Shown: piece after piece, positions 16,862-24,772 of the stretch
Position numbering within the stretch: position 1 is the stretch's first letter
How the letters are laid out: every line of letters begins with the position of its first letter
NCBI GenBank assembly: GCA_947504205.1
Contig: CANNGL010000001.1
Span: 868,001-932,000, forward strand
DNA from: an uncultured Litoreibacter sp.
GTDB lineage: Bacteria > Pseudomonadota > Alphaproteobacteria > Rhodobacterales > Rhodobacteraceae
Reading direction: 5' to 3'
Length of the DNA: 64,000 nt
The notes under the pieces: model-generated
The model's input: only the letters and a program-made list of their open reading frames with translations
Databases searched by the model: none
What the model was told of the DNA's origin: nothing
Made by a program: the position numbers and the translations under genes

Positions 16862-18295
16862 ATGCGCGGGTTGTGGACAAGATTTCGCTCGGTATTCCAA
16901 CTGAGTTATGGACAGAAGATTTTTCTTCTGACAACCGTTCCGTTGATCCTTGCCGTGGCCGCGATTTCACTGGTGGTTGCCAATCAGTCGCGCCAGCTTT
17001 CGGAGACCGAAATCCGCGAACTTGAAACGCAACTTCTGGAAGCCAAGAAAGAAGAACTGAAGAACTATATCGCGCTTGCACGCACGGCGATCGGAGCCAT
17101 CTACGGCAATGCCGCGCCAGATGATGAGGAGGCCAAGCTGGAGGTGTCGCAGATTTTGAGCGGCATGATCTATGGACAGGACGGGTTCTTCTTCGTCTAT
17201 GATTATGACGGCACCAATCTTGTCAGCCCGCGGCAGACCTTTCTGATCGGCAAGAACTGGATTGGCCTGAGCGACATCAATGGCGTGCCGGTTGTCGATG
17301 AGATCATCCGCATCGCACGATCCGGCGGGGGCTATCATAATTTTGACTGGCCCAAACCGTCGACGCGGGAGACAGCGCGGATCGTCGTCTACACAACCGC
17401 CCTGCCCGACTGGAAATGGGCCATTGGGACCGGTGTCTATATTGATGACGTGCTGAAAACCGTGGCGTCTGCGCGCGAAAAGACCGAGGCCCGGATACGG
17501 GAGACGTTCCTGATGATCGTGATGATCACCATCGGCGCACTACTATCGGTAACGGTCTTTGGTCTGCTTTTGAACCTGCGCGAGCGCAGATTGGCCGATG
17601 GCAAGTTGCAGGCGCTGACCGAACGCATTCTGGACACGCAAGAGGAAGAGCGCGGCCGCGTGGCGCGCGAGTTGCACGATTCCATCTCACAGATCCTGGT
17701 GGGCATTCGCTATACGCTGGAACTGGCCCGCCGTCGGGTTGCCAGCGGTGACGAGCGGGCCAAGGACAACCTCGACAAGGGGATTGATGGGCTGCAAGGC
17801 GCGATTGCCGAGGTCCGCCGTATCTCTGCCGATCTCAGACCCGGTGTACTGGATGATCTGGGCCTTGGTCCGGCGCTGAAGGCGCTTGTCGAAGAGTTCA
17901 GCCAGCGCACCGGCATCAAGGCAGATTTTGAAACAGTCGTCTTCCGCAACCGGCTGGACAAGGATGCCAAGATCGCGCTCTACCGCGTGGCACAGGAAGC
18001 GCTGACAAATATCGAGCGCCATGCCGAGGCCAGCCGCGTGGCCATCGAAGTGTCCGGCCACCGTCAGGGCGCGACCATGCGCATTCAGGATGATGGCAAA
18101 GGCATTGCCCCACAGGCGCGCAATCGCGGCGGGCTGGGACTGCGCAACATGCAGGAGCGCATGGACCAGCTGCGCGGCAGCCTGCGCGTGCTCAGCTCGG
18201 AGGATGGAACAGTGATTGAAGCTTCCGTCCCGCTCAGCCATATGCTGCCCCCCGAAGCGCGCGGCAAACCCACCAACCCCAGAAAGACGGCGTGA
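16862..18295 (+). CDS. Membrane histidine kinase with Cache sensor, NarL-type (HisKA_3)
   Basis: 477 residues. Helix 1 at about 20-40, a periplasmic single-Cache-type domain (about 45-212, with YGQDGFFFVYDYDGTNLVSP and GKNWIGLSDINGVPV), helix 2 at about 215-238, then HisKA_3 with H272 in GRVARELHDSISQ and an HATPase domain ending GGLGLRNMQERM. Cache domains of this subtype often bind small carboxylates. The gene is divergent from the TRAP operon and overlaps its response regulator, so it most likely senses the transported substrate and controls the transporter. Confidence 0.93.
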   Translation: MRGLWTRFRSVFQLSYGQKIFLLTTVPLILAVAAISLVVANQSRQLSETEIRELETQLLEAKKEELKNYIALARTAIGAIYGNAAPDDEEAKLEVSQILSGMIYGQDGFFFVYDYDGTNLVSPRQTFLIGKNWIGLSDINGVPVVDEIIRIARSGGGYHNFDWPKPSTRETARIVVYTTALPDWKWAIGTGVYIDDVLKTVASAREKTEARIRETFLMIVMITIGALLSVTVFGLLLNLRERRLADGKLQALTERILDTQEEERGRVARELHDSISQILVGIRYTLELARRRVASGDERAKDNLDKGIDGLQGAIAEVRRISADLRPGVLDDLGLGPALKALVEEFSQRTGIKADFETVVFRNRLDKDAKIALYRVAQEALTNIERHAEASRVAIEVSGHRQGATMRIQDDGKGIAPQARNRGGLGLRNMQERMDQLRGSLRVLSSEDGTVIEASVPLSHMLPPEARGKPTNPRKTA

Positions 18296-18945
18296 TGGAT
18301 GCAACTTCCCCAATTCGGCTTATCATTGCAGACGACCATCCCATGGTTGTCGATGGGATCGAGGCGATCCTAGAGACCTACGACGATATCGATGTGGTGG
18401 CGACACTGGCCAACGGTCAGGAGGTCATTGATCAGGTCGACGCGCTGAAACCTGATGTCATCCTGATGGACCTCAACATGCCGCAACTTGGCGGGCTACC
18501 AGCGACAGAGATATTGCTGGAGCGTCAGCCTGATCTCAAGATCCTGATCCTGTCGATGCACGACGCACCGGAATATGTTTCGACGGCGATGAGCTACGGA
18601 GCTGCGGGTTATATCCTCAAAGACGTGCCGACGGAGGATATCTACACTGCGATCCGCGATGTCATGGCGGGCAAAACATATTTGTGCCGGGGAGCTTCTG
18701 CCTCTCTGGCGCCGAAAACCGCTGATGGCCGGGAACCGCTGACAGCACGCGAGCAAACGATCCTTCTGGAACTGGCGCAGGGCAAATCGAACAAGCAGGT
18801 GGCGCTTGATCTGGATATCTCGGTGCATACCGTTGAAACCCACCGCAAGAATATCAAGCGGAAGCTAGGCATCAACTCGACTGCAGGGCTGACCCGCTAT
18901 GCGCTTGAGCATGGGGTGCTGCAAGGCACCGGTGTCGCGATCTGA
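18295..18945 (+). CDS. LuxR/NarL-family response regulator
   Basis: 216 residues from ATG (18295-18297), which overlaps the kinase stop as TGATG; a GTG one codon earlier is an alternative start. Receiver domain with DD in IIADDHPMVV and phosphoacceptor Asp in DVILMDLNMP, then a LuxR-type helix-turn-helix (LTAREQTILLELAQGKSNKQVALDLDISVHTVETHRKNI). It is the cognate partner of the Cache kinase and probable regulator of the TRAP genes. Confidence 0.94.
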   Translation: MDATSPIRLIIADDHPMVVDGIEAILETYDDIDVVATLANGQEVIDQVDALKPDVILMDLNMPQLGGLPATEILLERQPDLKILILSMHDAPEYVSTAMSYGAAGYILKDVPTEDIYTAIRDVMAGKTYLCRGASASLAPKTADGREPLTAREQTILLELAQGKSNKQVALDLDISVHTVETHRKNIKRKLGINSTAGLTRYALEHGVLQGTGVAI

Positions 18946-19043: not shown

Positions 19044-19403
19044 TCAGATCGCGAGGCGCCAGGTCTTCGCCTCCACCGGCAGGTAGGCTTCGATCGCGGC
19101 AGTGGCGATGACATGGGTTTGGCCATTGGCTGCGTCTTCGACATTCAGGCCGCCAACCACGCCAGTGACGCTTGCGTTGCCGCGTGGCAATTCTTGTTCG
19201 AGGGCTGCGATGTCAAGCTTTTCCGGCTCCTGCACGGCGATGGTGACACGTACCTCCATATCGCTGTGATCAAGGCCGAGGCTTTTGAAGAGGACGATCG
19301 AGGAATGGTGCAGCGCATCCTGAATGGCGCGTTTGGCTGCTTTTGTGTAATCCATCCCATAGAGGTCGTTGCCGGTGCCCATTTCGAGAATAATGCGCTT
19401 CAT
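19044..19403 (-). CDS. Lin0512 family protein (second of a tandem pair)
   Basis: 119 residues. It begins KRIILEMGTGNDLYGMDYTKAAKRAIQDALHHSSI and ends with THVIATAAIEAYLP, the pattern of Lin0512 proteins, small ring-forming proteins of uncertain role. It overlaps the upstream paralogue by 4 bp (ATGA), so the two are probably co-translated subunits. It resembles the partner in layout (same MGTG near the start, same basic helix, same Ala-rich end) but is clearly diverged from it. Confidence 0.85.
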   Translation of the reverse strand: MKRIILEMGTGNDLYGMDYTKAAKRAIQDALHHSSIVLFKSLGLDHSDMEVRVTIAVQEPEKLDIAALEQELPRGNASVTGVVGGLNVEDAANGQTHVIATAAIEAYLPVEAKTWRLAI

Positions 19404-19750
19404 GCTGCGGGCTCCATATCAAAGTAGACGACGACCGCAGCATTTGCGATCAGGGTTGCGCCCTGCCCGTCTGGTTTTGGGATATCCAGCCCGCCCTGGG
19501 TGATCGAGATTGTGGGCTGTCCATAGGGAAAGATGCCCAGCAGCGGAGCCACATCCACGGCGTCGGGTTGCTGGACGCCGATCTCCACCTCGATCTGCAT
19601 GGCCTCCTTGGGAAACTCGAAAGCTTCGGCCAGACTGAGCGAGTTGTGCCACAATGCGTCGCGGATCGCGCGCTCCGCTGCGCGGGTATAGTCGCCTTGC
19701 CTGATCGAGGTGCCCATCCCGAATTGCGTTACCATTCGTGTCTTAGCCAT
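19400..19750 (-). CDS. Lin0512 family protein (first of a tandem pair)
   Basis: 116 residues starting MAKTRMVTQFGMGTSIRQGDY. The chosen ATG (19748-19750) has GAGG 6 nt upstream; an earlier in-frame ATG at 19786 would add 12 residues with no family match. The pattern TRAAERAIRDALWHNSLSL and the C-terminal ATLIANAAVVVYFDM match the neighbour. Pairs of Lin0512 genes suggest a hetero-oligomer; no reaction is established that I can name with confidence. Confidence 0.85.
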   Translation of the reverse strand: MAKTRMVTQFGMGTSIRQGDYTRAAERAIRDALWHNSLSLAEAFEFPKEAMQIEVEIGVQQPDAVDVAPLLGIFPYGQPTISITQGGLDIPKPDGQGATLIANAAVVVYFDMEPAA

Positions 19751-19965
19751 ATCCGCCTCTCTACCGTTACGGGTGCCATGGGCCACACTGCCGCGCCGAA
19801 GGCAAGGTCACGGGTGGCCATGCGCCGTCGATTTGCCGTGCCGTCTTCATGCAAAACACCGCGATTTTTACGAAATCAGGATTTCTATGTCGCCAATCGT
19901 GACATTTAGGTAATTAAAATACCCAAAAAAGCACCCTGAGGACAGATTATTCAGGGGTTTGGCTG

Positions 19966-19994
19966 TTGACGCTCTGGAATCGCAGCACTAGTGT
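19966..19994 (+). promoter_or_regulatory. Sigma-70-type promoter of the ilvI leader
   Basis: TTGACG and TAGTGT separated by 17 bp. The predicted start near 20001 is about 24 nt before the leader peptide. It is preceded by GGCTG, giving a GCTGTTGAC block also seen at 43926-43940 and 56412-56421. Confidence 0.6.
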
Positions 19995-20023
19995 CTCGGC
20001 ACTTGCGAAGGAGTTTCAAGGTC

Positions 20024-20071
20024 ATGGCAGAGATTGTCATCCTAGTGAGAGACGGGTGCATGGGTCGGTGA
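20024..20071 (+). CDS. Ile/Val/Leu-rich leader peptide of ilvI
   Basis: A 15-residue peptide MAEIVILVRDGCMGR with five consecutive branched-chain codons (att gtc atc cta gtg, 20033-20047). AAGGAG lies 10 nt before the ATG. It is the sensor of the attenuator: ribosome stalling at these codons during Ile/Val/Leu shortage would leave the segment 20054-20063 free to form the antiterminator. The stop (20069-20071) lies inside the small hairpin 20064-20077. Confidence 0.85.
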   Translation: MAEIVILVRDGCMGR

Positions 20072-20125
20072 ACCGACAGCCATAAGGTAAACCATGCGCC
20101 CCGGTCACAACGATCGGGGCTTTTT
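20054..20125 (+). promoter_or_regulatory. Transcription attenuator of ilvI
   Basis: Mutually exclusive structures can be read directly. The antiterminator pairs GGGTGCATGG (20054-20063) with CCATGCGCCC (20092-20101), 10 bp with one G-U, enclosing the small hairpin GTCGG / CCGAC (20064-20077). The terminator pairs GCCCCGGTC (20098-20106) with GATCGGGGC (20112-20120), 9 bp with one G-U, followed by TTTTT (20121-20125). The two share 20098-20101. A ribosome that reaches the leader stop would mask the first antiterminator arm and favour termination. Ribosome-mediated attenuation of ilv genes is known in proteobacteria. Confidence 0.88.
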
Positions 20126-20157
20126 CGTAGGCGGTGACAGATAAAGGAGCACACGAC

Positions 20158-21915
20158 ATGTCACGTCAGATAAGCGGCGCAGAAATGGTAGTACAAGCCT
20201 TGATAGATCAAGGTGTGGACACGGTCTTTGGCTATCCCGGTGGCGCTGTGCTTCCGATCTATGATGAGATTTTCCAGCAGGAAAAGATCAACCATATTCT
20301 CGTGCGCCACGAACAAGGCGCAACCCATGCGGCAGAGGGCTATGCACGCGCCACCGGAAAACCCGGTGTTGTGCTTGTGACCTCAGGCCCCGGGGCCACC
20401 AATGCGGTGACCGGCATGACCGATGCACTGATGGATTCGATCCCAATGATCGTTCTGACCGGACAGGTGCCGACATTCATGATCGGCACGGATGCTTTTC
20501 AGGAAGCCGACACCGTGGGCATCACGCGCCCCTGTACGAAACACAACTGGCTGGTGAAGGACACAGATCATCTGGCCAATGTCATCCACGAGGCCTTCCA
20601 CGTCGCCACCAACGGACGGCCCGGGCCGGTTTTGGTTGATATCCCGAAGGATGTGCAGTTCGCCAAGGGCACCTATGTGCCACCGAAGAAAGCGGATGTC
20701 GGGCATTATCAGCCGAAGGTCAAAGGCGATATCGAGGCGATCACCGAGCTGGTGCAACTGATGGAAACGGCGCAGCGTCCGGTTTTCTATACCGGTGGCG
20801 GCGTGATCAATTCCGGCGACAGCGCCACACAATTGCTGCGCGAACTGGCTGAGGCGACGAACTTTCCTGTAACCTCAACGCTGATGGGTCTTGGGGCTTA
20901 CCCGGCCTCCGGTGCGCAATGGCTGGGCATGCTGGGAATGCATGGGCTGTACGAAGCCAATCTGGCGATGCATGATTGTGATCTGATGATCAATATCGGC
21001 GCGCGTTTTGACGACCGGATTACCGGGCGCATCGATGCTTTCAGCCCCAAATCGAAGAAGGCGCATATCGATATCGATCCCTCCTCGATCAACAAGGTGA
21101 TCCATGTGGACATCCCGATCATCGGAGATGTGGCCCATGTGCTGGAGGACCTGTTGCGGGTGTGGAAGTCGCGCGGCCGCAAGACCCACAAGGAGGGTCT
21201 GGCCAAATGGTGGAAGCAGATTGAAGGATGGCGAGCGAAAGACTGTCTGTCCTACAAGAATTCCGACAAGATCATCAAACCTCAATTCGCGTTGCAGCGG
21301 TTGGAGCATCTGACCAAGGATCATCCGCGGCGCTACATCACGACCGAGGTGGGCCAGCACCAGATGTGGGCGGCCCAGTATCTGAACTTTGAAGACCCGA
21401 ACCGGTGGATGACCTCCGGCGGGCTTGGCACAATGGGATACGGCTTCCCGGCCTCGATCGGCGTTCAAATCGCCCATCCTGACGCCTTGGTGATCAATGT
21501 GGCGGGCGAGGCCTCGTGGTTGATGAATATGCAGGAGATGGGCACGGCGGCACAATATCAGCTGCCCGTGAAGCAATTCATCCTGAACAACGAACGGCTG
21601 GGCATGGTGCGCCAATGGCAGCAACTGCTGCATGGCAACCGCTATTCTCATTCCTGGTCAGAAGCGCTTCCTGATTTTGTGAAACTTGCCGAGGCATTTG
21701 GCGCCAAGGGCATTATCTGTCAGGACCCATCCGATCTGGATGATGCGATCATGGAGATGATCAATCATGATGGTCCGGTGGTCTTCGATTGCATGGTCGA
21801 AAAGCATGAGAACTGCTTCCCGATGATCCCATCTGGCGCCCCTCATAACGAGATGCTTATGGGCGATGACAAGGCCGATGATGCGATTGGTGCTGAAGGC
21901 GGCGTTCTGGTCTGA
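20158..21915 (+). CDS. ilvI: Acetolactate synthase large (catalytic) subunit
   Basis: 585 residues. Thiamine diphosphate enzyme for the first common step of valine, leucine and isoleucine synthesis. Motifs: VDTVFGYPGGAVLPIYDEI with the catalytic Glu later in RHEQGATHAAEGYARATG, GPGATNAVTGMTDAL, and the C-terminal ThDP motif near GVQIAHPDALVINVAGEASWLMN, where the usual GDGS has become GEAS. The start at 20158 has AAGGAG 10 nt upstream; an in-frame ATG at 20134 would overlap the attenuator tail and lacks a Shine-Dalgarno. The regulatory subunit ilvH is not next to it but at 24212. Confidence 0.95.
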   Translation: MSRQISGAEMVVQALIDQGVDTVFGYPGGAVLPIYDEIFQQEKINHILVRHEQGATHAAEGYARATGKPGVVLVTSGPGATNAVTGMTDALMDSIPMIVLTGQVPTFMIGTDAFQEADTVGITRPCTKHNWLVKDTDHLANVIHEAFHVATNGRPGPVLVDIPKDVQFAKGTYVPPKKADVGHYQPKVKGDIEAITELVQLMETAQRPVFYTGGGVINSGDSATQLLRELAEATNFPVTSTLMGLGAYPASGAQWLGMLGMHGLYEANLAMHDCDLMINIGARFDDRITGRIDAFSPKSKKAHIDIDPSSINKVIHVDIPIIGDVAHVLEDLLRVWKSRGRKTHKEGLAKWWKQIEGWRAKDCLSYKNSDKIIKPQFALQRLEHLTKDHPRRYITTEVGQHQMWAAQYLNFEDPNRWMTSGGLGTMGYGFPASIGVQIAHPDALVINVAGEASWLMNMQEMGTAAQYQLPVKQFILNNERLGMVRQWQQLLHGNRYSHSWSEALPDFVKLAEAFGAKGIICQDPSDLDDAIMEMINHDGPVVFDCMVEKHENCFPMIPSGAPHNEMLMGDDKADDAIGAEGGVLV

Positions 21916-21931: not shown

Positions 21932-21952
21932 GCCCGGCTCTTATGGCCGGGC
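21932..21952. terminator. Hairpin after ilvI, overlapping the end of the hybrid kinase gene
   Basis: Stem GCCCGGC / GCCGGGC with a 7-nt loop, 16 bp after the ilvI stop and extending into the last codons of the convergent kinase gene. It lacks a clear T run, so terminator function is uncertain. Confidence 0.45.
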
Positions 21953-24046
21953 GGCTCGTCTGTCCGCGCAGCAGAGGTCTTCGAGGTCAATCTCTATCTC
22001 GGGGTCACTGAATAATTGTTCCGACAAACAGGCAATAAGAGTTGCGAGCCGCACCGGTTTGGTAAGAAATCCGTTCATCCCTGCTGCGATACATTTCGAG
22101 CGGTCGGCTTCAAAGGCGTTGCCCGTCAGAGCCACGATGGCGCAAGGCTTGCGGCCCATATCCAACTCTGAACAGCGAATGATCTCTGTAGCTTCAAGGC
22201 CGGTCATTTCCGGCATCGAGAGATCCATCAGAACAAGATCATACGCCATTTTGGCGACGGCTTCACAGGCGGCCTGACCCTCGGCGACAGTATCAAGGTA
22301 CACGCCGGTCGCCCCCAGCATCTTGCGCACCACAAGCTGATTGGTTTGGTTGTCTTCGGCCAACAGGATTTTGAATTCCGACAGGTCAGGTATTTCAAGA
22401 TCAGAACGATCCGGGGTTGGTTGTTCCCGATTGACGGCCAGCAAAGGCAAATCCACCGTAAAGCAGGAACCGGTTGAGGCTTTGGAGGAGACATTGATCG
22501 TGCCGCCCATGCCCTCTGCGAGTTGCCTCGTGATTGCCAAGCCGAGGCCCGTGCCTTCGAATTCGCGTTGCCAACCATTATCGACCTGTCGAAAAACCTC
22601 GAAAATGGTGTCGATGCTGCTGGCGGGAATGCCAATGCCGGTATCTGAAACCAGAATTTCAAGCCTGCCCGCGCCGGTCTTGCGAAGCAACAAGCTGACC
22701 TTTCCCGCCTCCGTAAACTTGATCGCGTTGCCGACAAGATTGGTCAATATCTGACGCAGCCGAAGCTTGTCGCCGATAATGGCGCTTGGCAGTGTCTCGT
22801 CCCAGCCCAGCTCGAAAGTGAGGCCCTTTGCCTCCGCCATCGGCGTCATCATCCGCGACATGTCCTGTGCGAGTTCGTGTAGCCCGAACGGCACACGTTC
22901 GAGGTTCATGTGTCCTGCCTCAATCTTGGAGAAGTCGAGAATATCGCTGATCAAATCCGTCAGCGAAACGGCAGAGTTTCGGATCGTCTCGACAAATTCG
23001 GCCTGCTCCGGGCTGAGTGCCGTTTGCATCAGCAGGTCCGTCATTCCGATGATGCCATTCATCGGCGTTCTGATTTCATGGCTCATCGAGGCAAGGAAGT
23101 TTGACTTCGCGTGGTTGGCGTGACGTTCCGCGTCGCGTGCGCGCTCAAGCTCCGCATTGCGCTGATCAAGCTCCGTGACATCATTATGCATGATGATCAG
23201 CCCGCCAGCCGAGCGGCGTGTTACCCGCGCGAAATATGATCGCTCCAAGGAGGGTATGCGCATCAGAACCGCGTCACCCTTCATCAATCTGTGTTCCAGA
23301 TCATTCAGATCGTCGCCATCGACGGCGTCACCTCGCTCCGTCAGCAGGGCAATCAGGTCCTCCAGCCGTTGTCCGGGAAAAACATCACCCTGCTCTAACC
23401 CAAACAATTTTCTGTAGCCTTCATTCACCATCAGGATGCGTTTGTCCGGATCGAGAAGGTTGTCGCCATCGGTGACCAACAGACCCTCGCTCATCTCATC
23501 GAGAACCTCGGTCAACAGGCGGTTCGCCTCCTCCACCTCCTCATTACGGCGCAAAAGTTCCAGTTCCAGTGCGTCGGCGCGGGCGCGGATTTGATCAACG
23601 AGGCTTGCATCACGCTCCGCATGGTTGACCGCACGTGTCAGGTTGAACGTCAGACCACGCAGGCCAAGGTACGTACCGTCACTGGCATGGCGTGGCATCC
23701 CGCTGGTCATCAGCACAGCATGCTGGCCCGGAGCCACCTCTTTTTCGAAACAGAAATTTGCGTAGCGTTCCCGCGCGGACAGGACTGCGAGATGTTTCTG
23801 AAACCTTGGACCGGCAAAGCTGAGATCCCGCGTGCCGCCCATCATTGGCACGCCGATACGCTCCGCCGGGTTCAGGCCCAGATGTCTTTCCAACCCCTGA
23901 CTGACAAAGCTGAAGCGGTGATCTGGGTCAGATTCCCAGAAATACATTGGCAGGTCTTCAACAAGCGGCAGCCACGCCGATAGACCGCGATCTGGCTCCG
24001 ACAGGTGACCGGCATCGCTGCGCAGGGGGTCCAGCAGGTCCTTCAA
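21941..24046 (-). CDS. Cytoplasmic hybrid histidine kinase (PAS-PAS-HisKA-HATPase-REC)
   Basis: 701 residues with no membrane helix. PAS domain 1 at about 25-140, a coiled-coil linker (about 142-185), PAS domain 2 (about 185-295), HisKA with H323 in FLASMSHEIRTPMNG, an HATPase domain with GIGIP and GTGLGLAITRQL, and a C-terminal receiver (about 559-675) with D608 in DLVLMDLSMPEMTG. No output domain, so a separate phosphotransfer protein or regulator must receive the signal. It lies antisense between ilvI and ilvH, an unusual position; nothing in it suggests a role in amino acid synthesis. Confidence 0.93.
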   Translation of the reverse strand: MKDLLDPLRSDAGHLSEPDRGLSAWLPLVEDLPMYFWESDPDHRFSFVSQGLERHLGLNPAERIGVPMMGGTRDLSFAGPRFQKHLAVLSARERYANFCFEKEVAPGQHAVLMTSGMPRHASDGTYLGLRGLTFNLTRAVNHAERDASLVDQIRARADALELELLRRNEEVEEANRLLTEVLDEMSEGLLVTDGDNLLDPDKRILMVNEGYRKLFGLEQGDVFPGQRLEDLIALLTERGDAVDGDDLNDLEHRLMKGDAVLMRIPSLERSYFARVTRRSAGGLIIMHNDVTELDQRNAELERARDAERHANHAKSNFLASMSHEIRTPMNGIIGMTDLLMQTALSPEQAEFVETIRNSAVSLTDLISDILDFSKIEAGHMNLERVPFGLHELAQDMSRMMTPMAEAKGLTFELGWDETLPSAIIGDKLRLRQILTNLVGNAIKFTEAGKVSLLLRKTGAGRLEILVSDTGIGIPASSIDTIFEVFRQVDNGWQREFEGTGLGLAITRQLAEGMGGTINVSSKASTGSCFTVDLPLLAVNREQPTPDRSDLEIPDLSEFKILLAEDNQTNQLVVRKMLGATGVYLDTVAEGQAACEAVAKMAYDLVLMDLSMPEMTGLEATEIIRCSELDMGRKPCAIVALTGNAFEADRSKCIAAGMNGFLTKPVRLATLIACLSEQLFSDPEIEIDLEDLCCADRRAARP

Positions 24047-24211: not shown

Positions 24212-24772
24212 ATGTCCCCGCTCAAAATCAAAAAAGGCACGTCACGCAAATCGGCCTATGATCTCAAGGATCCCAATGCCGATATCATCGAAACCCATAC
24301 GCTTGCGGTTGTCGTAGACAACGAGGCGGGTGTGCTGGCGCGCGTCATCGGGCTGTTTTCCGGGCGCGGGTATAACATTGAAAGTCTGACGGTGGCTGAG
24401 GTTGACCACGAGGGTCACCGGTCCCGCATTACGGTTGTCACCACCGGAACGCCTGCCGTGATCGCTCAGATCAAAGCGCAGCTTGGCAGGATGGTTCCTG
24501 TTTATGACGTGCATGATCTAACGGAAGAAGGACAAAGCGTCGAACGGGAACTGGCGCTCTTCAAGGTCGCAGGCACAGGCGAGAAACGCATCGAAGCGAT
24601 CAGACTGGCCGAGATATTCCGGGCCAATGTCGTGGATTCGACGCTGGAGAGCTTTGTTTTTGAAATGACAGGCACGTCCGAGAAGATTGATGCCTTTGCA
24701 GAGCTCATGCGCCCATTGGGACTGGAAGAGGTTGCCAGAACGGGCGTTGCGGCGCTTGCACGCGGCCTCTGA
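24212..24772 (+). CDS. ilvH: Acetolactate synthase small (regulatory) subunit
   Basis: 186 residues. An N-terminal ACT domain (ETHTLAVVVDNEAGVLARVIGLFSGRGYNIESLTVAEVD) that binds valine, then the C-terminal ALS_ss domain (RELALFKVAGTGEKRIEAIRLAEIFRANVVD). The ~25-residue N-terminal extension rich in Lys is common in alphaproteobacteria. It activates the IlvI catalytic subunit and gives it feedback sensitivity. It is separated from ilvI by a 2.1-kb antisense kinase gene. Confidence 0.95.
   Translation: MSPLKIKKGTSRKSAYDLKDPNADIIETHTLAVVVDNEAGVLARVIGLFSGRGYNIESLTVAEVDHEGHRSRITVVTTGTPAVIAQIKAQLGRMVPVYDVHDLTEEGQSVERELALFKVAGTGEKRIEAIRLAEIFRANVVDSTLESFVFEMTGTSEKIDAFAELMRPLGLEEVARTGVAALARGL

Follow-up and report, generated by a model that had tools for sequence, protein, structure and literature searches.

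The acetolactate synthase gene ilvI of an uncultured Litoreibacter sp. is preceded by an element that is very probably a ribosome-mediated transcription attenuator of this gene, responsive to charged tRNA for valine, leucine and isoleucine. It unites a ribosome-binding site and leader ORF, a run of Ile/Leu/Val codons, a terminator and, with ilvI, a gene of the pathway concerned. A comparable element, in this case lacking the pathway gene, is found before genes for Bcr/CflA exporters; judged from their letters, the attenuators of ilvI and of the exporter clade appear to be of one lineage. The DNA analysed is a stretch of 64,000 nucleotides ("the window"), and the features therein are compiled in Table 1.

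Table 1. Positions of the ilvI attenuator, its parts and the associated genes in the window
Feature	Position	Strand	Details
-35-like motif TTGACG	19966–19971	+	-10 region at about 19986–19994 weak in the window
P0 5' arm	20002–20013	+	contains the leader Shine-Dalgarno (SD) motif AAGGAG, 20008–20013; pairs with 20120–20131
Leader ORF MAEIVILVRDGCMGR	20024–20071	+	15 codons; ATG at 20024, TGA at 20069–20071
Control codons Ile-Val-Ile-Leu-Val	20033–20047	+	codons 4–8 of the leader
P1 5' arm GGGTGCATGG (putative antiterminator arm)	20054–20063	+	within leader codons 11–14
P2 hairpin	20064–20077	+	stop codon in loop; 5 bp, loop UGAA in the window
P3 small hairpin inside P1	20079–20088	+	predicted in a single local fold
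P1 3' arm CCATGCGCCC	20092–20101	+	pairs with GGGTGCATGG over 10 bp, one G-U; overlaps the terminator by 4 nt
Intrinsic terminator hairpin	20098–20120	+	GCCCCGGTC (20098–20106) with GATCGGGGC (20112–20120), 9 bp, one G-U
T run TTTTT	20121–20125	+	
P0 3' arm	20120–20131	+	comprises the final base of the terminator, the T run and the next 6 nt; whole only in RNA that reads through
ilvI, acetolactate synthase 3 large subunit	20158–21915	+	start ATG at 20158; own SD AAAGGAG, 20143–20149
ilvN/ilvH, small-subunit gene	24212–24772	+	assigned by eye

A preliminary description of this DNA had claimed a 15-codon leader with five consecutive Ile/Val/Leu codons, which proved exact to the base, together with 10-bp arms, a 9-bp terminator, bases common to both (20098–20101, 4 nt) and a T run, the coordinates of which are likewise all exact. 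It had also held that the stop codon is placed such that a ribosome finishing the leader masks the first arm. Indeed, with this arm lying in codons 11–14, the footprint of a ribosome positioned at the stop codon would, given its size, extend over it. The leader AAGGAG is situated ten bases 5' of the ATG. A loose TTGAC-based pattern occurs upstream of the leader in 68 of the 76 ilvI rows described below, and a stricter promoter scan of the window region upstream of the leader called no promoter. The downstream gene is identified as IlvI by NF006581 (1140 bits versus a cut-off of 974).

Several computations compared the element with chance. The terminator is the only terminator-like site in 19750–20200 (shuffles average 0.5), and the folds are more stable than those of shuffled sequences, with z-values of -4.4 for 20001–20133, -4.3 for 20050–20125 and -3.4 for 20086–20125. 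A combination script, requiring a leader with five consecutive Ile/Leu/Val codons, a terminator and an 8-bp arm, returned a single site in the window, where one ORF offers three nested starts, and no match in 60 first-order Markov windows.

The wider neighbourhood, viewed by eye, contains further genes. A histidine-kinase-like gene on the minus strand (21941–24046) is located between ilvI and the small-subunit gene ilvN/ilvH; among the relatives, ilvN was found on the locus, up to 1.2 kb past the end of ilvI, in 67/80 cases and a kinase match in 6/80. Upstream of the attenuator, two adjacent small ORFs of 119 and 128 amino acids (19044–19786, minus strand) resemble one another like a duplicated pair, and further upstream a histidine-kinase-like ORF (16862–18295) is followed by a LuxR-type response-regulator-like ORF (18292–18945), both on the plus strand.

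For comparison, the best 80 loci from an IlvI scan of genome contigs were used, many of them from genera which we take to be Rhodobacterales, others from alphaproteobacterial or Rhodobacteraceae assemblies. The same design of leader, arm and terminator is present at 75 of these 80 loci, resulting in 76 rows with the window. The remaining five of the 81 loci (window included) were left out, namely L028, L061 and L017 with divergent versions of the ilvI element, L024, where the contig end falls inside the element, and L035, which has no attenuator before ilvI; apart from L024, the motif was missing in all of these. Thus, both the leader codons and the complementary arms, whose lack of conservation in relatives was to count against the preliminary description, were found conserved. 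The leader is 15 codons long in 73/76 rows; codons 4–8 are all Ile, Leu or Val in 64 and include at least four such codons in 75 rows, and the C-terminus reads RMGR in 69, CMGR in five, RMAR in one and RVGR in one. Translation of the leader is predicted from an SD-like motif, which precedes it in 70 of the 76 rows, and from the preserved reading frame and length.

Codon choice within these leaders is distinctive. CTA accounts for 49.5% of the leucine codons in ilvI leaders versus 1.5% in the ilvI genes, GTA for 50.5% versus 4.4% of the valine codons, and ATT for 52.7% versus 13.7% of the isoleucine codons. As stop codons, the leaders use TAA (63), TGA (13) and never TAG, while the ilvI genes themselves use TAA in 34, TGA in 35 and TAG in seven cases. 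The notion that the stop codon generally sits in a GNRA loop was rejected, since TAG is used in 6 of the 23 leaders before Bcr/CflA genes. That the region is the plain terminator of another transcript, with an accidental leader ORF, is conceivable insofar as genes on the opposite strand lie upstream and a transcript boundary could be located here; however, 76 rows agree in the length and frame of the leader, in its rare codons and in where it stops, making this explanation extremely improbable.

Out of the 76 rows, 62 were picked as diverse, and from these an alignment of 57 rows was obtained, from which alone the covariance model R1 was built. R1 matched 263 of the 292 genomes of the order. 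When occurrence beyond alphaproteobacteria was looked for in a phylum sample, 24/398 genomes were matched, 23 of which belong to the window's own family and one is weak (E 4.7e-4). The searches of large samples were run with stricter filters, by which weak matches are lost; hence, absences in these samples are to be read as lower bounds on occurrence.

Absence and divergence of the attenuator were encountered also at ilvI itself. In genus g7, whose listed representatives in the order sample have no R1 match, the attenuator is absent from all three ilvI upstream regions inspected (L221, L222 and L224 in genomes G048, G022 and G006), which is a case of attenuator loss or replacement. Six divergent leaders (L219, L223, L225, L226, L028 and L017) have P1 and terminator non-overlapping in predicted folds, with a gap of 0–3 nt; the first five are written in other letters, but in each a hairpin is predicted immediately ahead of the terminator, at the end of the leader or close to it. 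In single-sequence folds, such distant leaders support the architecture in a manner that the near-invariant main group cannot. Four of them (L219, L223, L225 and L226), all from the window's family, combine quite different arm sequences with the same order of hairpin and terminator and are useful to trace the evolution of the switch. Among 17 ilvI genes outside this family, no copy of the element was seen; some of these genes have hairpins with T runs (e.g., L228 and L229), and the ilvI gene of G295 is accompanied by a leader with Ile/Val/Leu in it and by a hairpin devoid of a T run.

The support for the individual helices differs. Six pairs of the terminator show two-sided changes, and none of 500 shuffles was as good. 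Of the P1 pairs, the eight from 33/79 to 40/72 are present in 55–57 of the 57 rows, with the outermost two of the window's ten pairs formed in only 12 and 34 of the 57 relatives; because P1 is almost invariant in the main group, covariation lends little support to its pairing, and in the Bcr set shuffles were about as good (120/500 on the covariation score). P2, with the consensus CCG-GUAA-CGG, is formed in 92% of cells and shows some covariation. For P0, covariation is modest: across 76 loci, pairing with the own partner amounts to -13.0 kcal/mol versus -11.7 kcal/mol with swapped partners (about 1.4 better; 0/10000 permutations), and for the flanks alone the own partner is favoured by 0.7 kcal/mol (31/20000 permutations), with the pairing being poor in many species.

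How P1 acts on the terminator is less obvious. In the local minimum-energy fold, a shortened P1 of the inner six pairs is found alongside the complete terminator, and this arrangement of full terminator and short P1 is favoured by 3.4 kcal/mol in the window and by a median of 1.5 kcal/mol over the 57 rows. Before the second arm of the terminator is made, full P1 dominates (0.985 for an outer pair). The preliminary description had proposed folding with and without masking of the first arm; the terminator base pair attained 0.977 with the arm free and 0.997 with the arm masked, so that the masking made little difference and the terminator is predicted to form either way, since only four bases are common in the window. 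In read-through RNA extending to the ilvI ATG, the SD region 20002–20013 pairs with 20120–20131, the terminator base drops to 0.115 and full P1 reaches 0.78.

In the trp, ilv, leu and his attenuators of E. coli, a leader ORF with control codons is combined with alternative hairpins and a terminator, and the antiterminator takes much of a terminator arm. The ilvI element differs in that mostly 2–4 nt are common and in that the arm lies inside the last codons of the leader. According to the script, the overlap of P1 and terminator in the 57 rows is 0 nt in four rows, 1 nt in one, 2 nt in 22, 3 nt in 28 and 4 nt in two, the zero being an artefact for at least L012 and L013, where a bulge breaks the run finder. 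The attenuation logic of the preliminary description consequently needs to be divided: ribosome-mediated attenuation of ilvI by Ile/Val/Leu has strong support from conservation, from the rarity of its control codons and from the gene context, whereas exclusion through shared bases sits poorly with an overlap of 2–3 nt in 50/57 rows and with the six divergent leaders, where there is none. Textbook exclusion by base sharing is, on these modelled structures, only weakly supported.

The same small or missing overlap, together with the coexistence of P1 and terminator in the folds, would suit a different role of P1, namely that of a pause or spacer hairpin beside the terminator, with the stalled ribosome altering RNA polymerase pausing or coupling and no sharing of bases being involved. 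We consider this rather unlikely, though worth bearing in mind, as pairs 33/79 and 34/78, in which the two helices overlap, persist in 55 and 56 of the 57 rows, and the dominance of full P1 ahead of the second terminator arm fits a kinetic antiterminator.

For the attenuator proposed here, few common bases and two helices that coexist at equilibrium imply a kinetic or steric mode of blocking at the polymerase. With a ribosome held up early in the control codons (from codon 4 to about codon 7), codons 11–14 would stay free and could pair with 20092–20101 to give P1 before the second arm of the terminator is made. P1 would hinder closure of the terminator base, kinetically or sterically, and starvation for valine, leucine or isoleucine would result in read-through. 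A ribosome at the stop codon, by contrast, would mask the arm and let the terminator form. Once the polymerase has passed, P0 may hide the leader ribosome site in the read-through mRNA.

The genome of the window contains two strong R1 copies, the second of which, on another contig, has the higher score (69.7 versus 64.7 bits). This second copy (E 1.4e-15) has the leader MIIDVVVSERCMVR and precedes a gene for a Bcr/CflA family efflux MFS transporter (TIGR00710, 226.5 bits; cut-off 200.9). Two R1 matches also occur in each of 13 further genomes of the order; the second of these lies before a Bcr/CflA gene in 11 and before neither gene in two. In a class sample, R1 matched 22 of 380 genomes from outside the window's family. 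The 11 strongest of these matches (L128–L138) all stand before Bcr/CflA genes; the 11 weakest (L139–L149) were by eye terminators or gene ends and were rejected as copies. A second model, R2, was built from 23 Bcr-type loci and matched 12 of the same 380 genomes, 11 at the Bcr loci of R1 and one at L190; this locus, like L172 and L173, encodes neither ilvI nor bcr, and all three were discarded. Although trained on Bcr copies, R2 also detects ilvI copies. Beyond 26 loci listed singly, a further 102 R1/R2 loci, repeats of one place included, comprise 89 ilvI, 12 bcr and one with neither gene, all 12 bcr loci being repeats of known ones. Outside the window's family, none of the class-sample matches of R1 or R2 was at ilvI among the loci checked, and no genome was identified as Caulobacter.

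A Bcr/CflA protein is encoded downstream at 23/23 Bcr-type loci, which are spread over 11 alphaproteobacterial families, including that of the window. A run of at least three Ile/Leu/Val codons was found by script in 14 of the 23 leaders and in 15 when L161 is read by eye (MKQIVIVVGRMRMGR); for L134 and L161 the script had chosen wrong starts. At least seven leaders (L136, L137, L138 and L167–L170) have no such run, which weakens the reading of valine as the signal; valine shortage or a general slowing of ribosomes by drugs are both possible. The element also occurs in Roseobacter denitrificans OCh 114, on the plasmid pTB1, which is typed as conjugative and on which the leader MTVKFVVVVSKRRMVR precedes RD1_RS19855 (L261, 1700–1960). 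Five records of conjugative plasmids, from Roseobacter, Phaeobacter and Leisingera, contain DNA similar to the attenuator-exporter region (the element itself was examined in pTB1).

The transporters concerned form a circumscribed group. When the transporter of the window's genome is compared with 11 genomes outside the family, the attenuator-bearing gene ranks first in each (383–519 bits), the next-best match in any of them reaching at most 226.5 bits. In a tree of 67 proteins, all 23 attenuator-bearing transporters fall into one group of 26 rows (support 98/89). Outside this group are 41 homologues devoid of the element, taken from the family of the window and from those 11 genomes; within it, the further three members are L278 and L280, with no match, and L264, with a weak one (E 0.086). 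The tree had been enlarged by 18 homologues from other genomes, because homologues devoid of the element had previously come from one family only; the support of the group thereby changed from 88/90 to 98/89. The near-identical L284 and the fragment L310 were left out, as were L263 and L265, whose genes are already represented by L171 and L168, respectively. Applied to the loci of 49 Bcr/CflA homologues, of which 30 come from the order and 19 from the 11 genomes outside the family, R2 matched only L262, L263 and L265, which are copies already in R2, and, weakly, L264; the idea of the element preceding every Bcr/CflA gene was, hence, rejected. On the homologues, a pattern script missed L263, found the arm pattern with no terminator in L275, and reported terminator-like sites with no leader of this kind in L264, L278, L283 and L284.

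The likeness of the two attenuators might have arisen independently from common needs, that is, a leader end, an arm and a GC-rich terminator. Pairing constrains the P1 arms, terminators resemble one another, and the 11 weakest of the 22 R1 matches outside the family (E 2e-5 to 9e-4) read as mere terminators. Yet the two share letters beyond what pairing needs, including the leader end R-C/R-M-x-R-stop, CGGTAACGG and CCATGCGCCCCCG, at similar spacing; the nine strongest matches outside the family have E-values of 3e-16 to 2e-9, and the strong matches checked precede two gene types only. We therefore regard an independent origin as improbable. The simplest reading is a single lineage, wider before the exporter and recruited to ilvI in Rhodobacterales, with the direction suggested by the range only. 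A same-lineage module before the Bcr/CflA group would make the ilvI copy one branch of a wider alphaproteobacterial attenuator lineage. In its full form, we give even chances to the proposal that one lineage serves two unrelated genes: its wider form would accompany one Bcr/CflA clade in at least 11 families and conjugative plasmids of the Roseobacter group, Rhodobacterales would have recruited it for ilvI, and stalling in the mostly Val-rich leader, upon shortage of valyl-tRNA or exposure to translation-slowing drugs, would switch on the pump.

A 2004 study by Vitreschak et al. reportedly predicts ilvIH attenuators in alphaproteobacteria, which would resemble that of the window in gene, predicted logic and comparative-genomic basis. 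We know of no drug response of the Bcr leaders. At the window element, no Rfam 15 family scored above its gathering threshold (best 12.8 bits, E 1.4, anti-hemB), and over 14 loci only a tRNA was matched. For Caulobacter crescentus, attenuation via the ilv leader of the acetolactate synthase operon is described with reference to Tarleton, Malakooti and Ely 1994 (PMC4117421). As far as can be taken from that account, ilvL-ilvBN/ilvIH has the same traits as the window element—an alphaproteobacterial acetolactate synthase operon, tandem Ile and Val leader codons, a terminator, and ribosome pausing that lets the polymerase through; the likeness is one of description, and the passage on Caulobacter mentions no sharing with an exporter gene (PMC4117421). 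For Sinorhizobium, an ilvIH cis-regulatory element is listed, citing Vitreschak et al. 2004 (PMC2573895). Attenuation of ilvI by valine, leucine and isoleucine, of the known kind seen in Caulobacter, is the best explanation of the window element. Ribosome-mediated attenuators are also described for antibiotic-resistance genes such as vmlR (PMC9226507, among others); like these, the Bcr/CflA copies apparently place a regulated leader before a resistance-type gene, whereas, unlike the vmlR type, 15/23 Bcr leaders keep a Val/Ile/Leu run. No report of an element shared by ilvI and an exporter was found in the literature searched, which is weak evidence as most subscription papers lay outside the search.

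Branched-chain amino acid attenuation of acetolactate synthase is already known. A closely similar RNA switch before an exporter clade would illustrate how attenuators pass from gene to gene and would point to the signal behind those transporters, perhaps also to the class of their substrates. It also lends itself to a compact test of the least amount of shared sequence with which an antiterminator can work.
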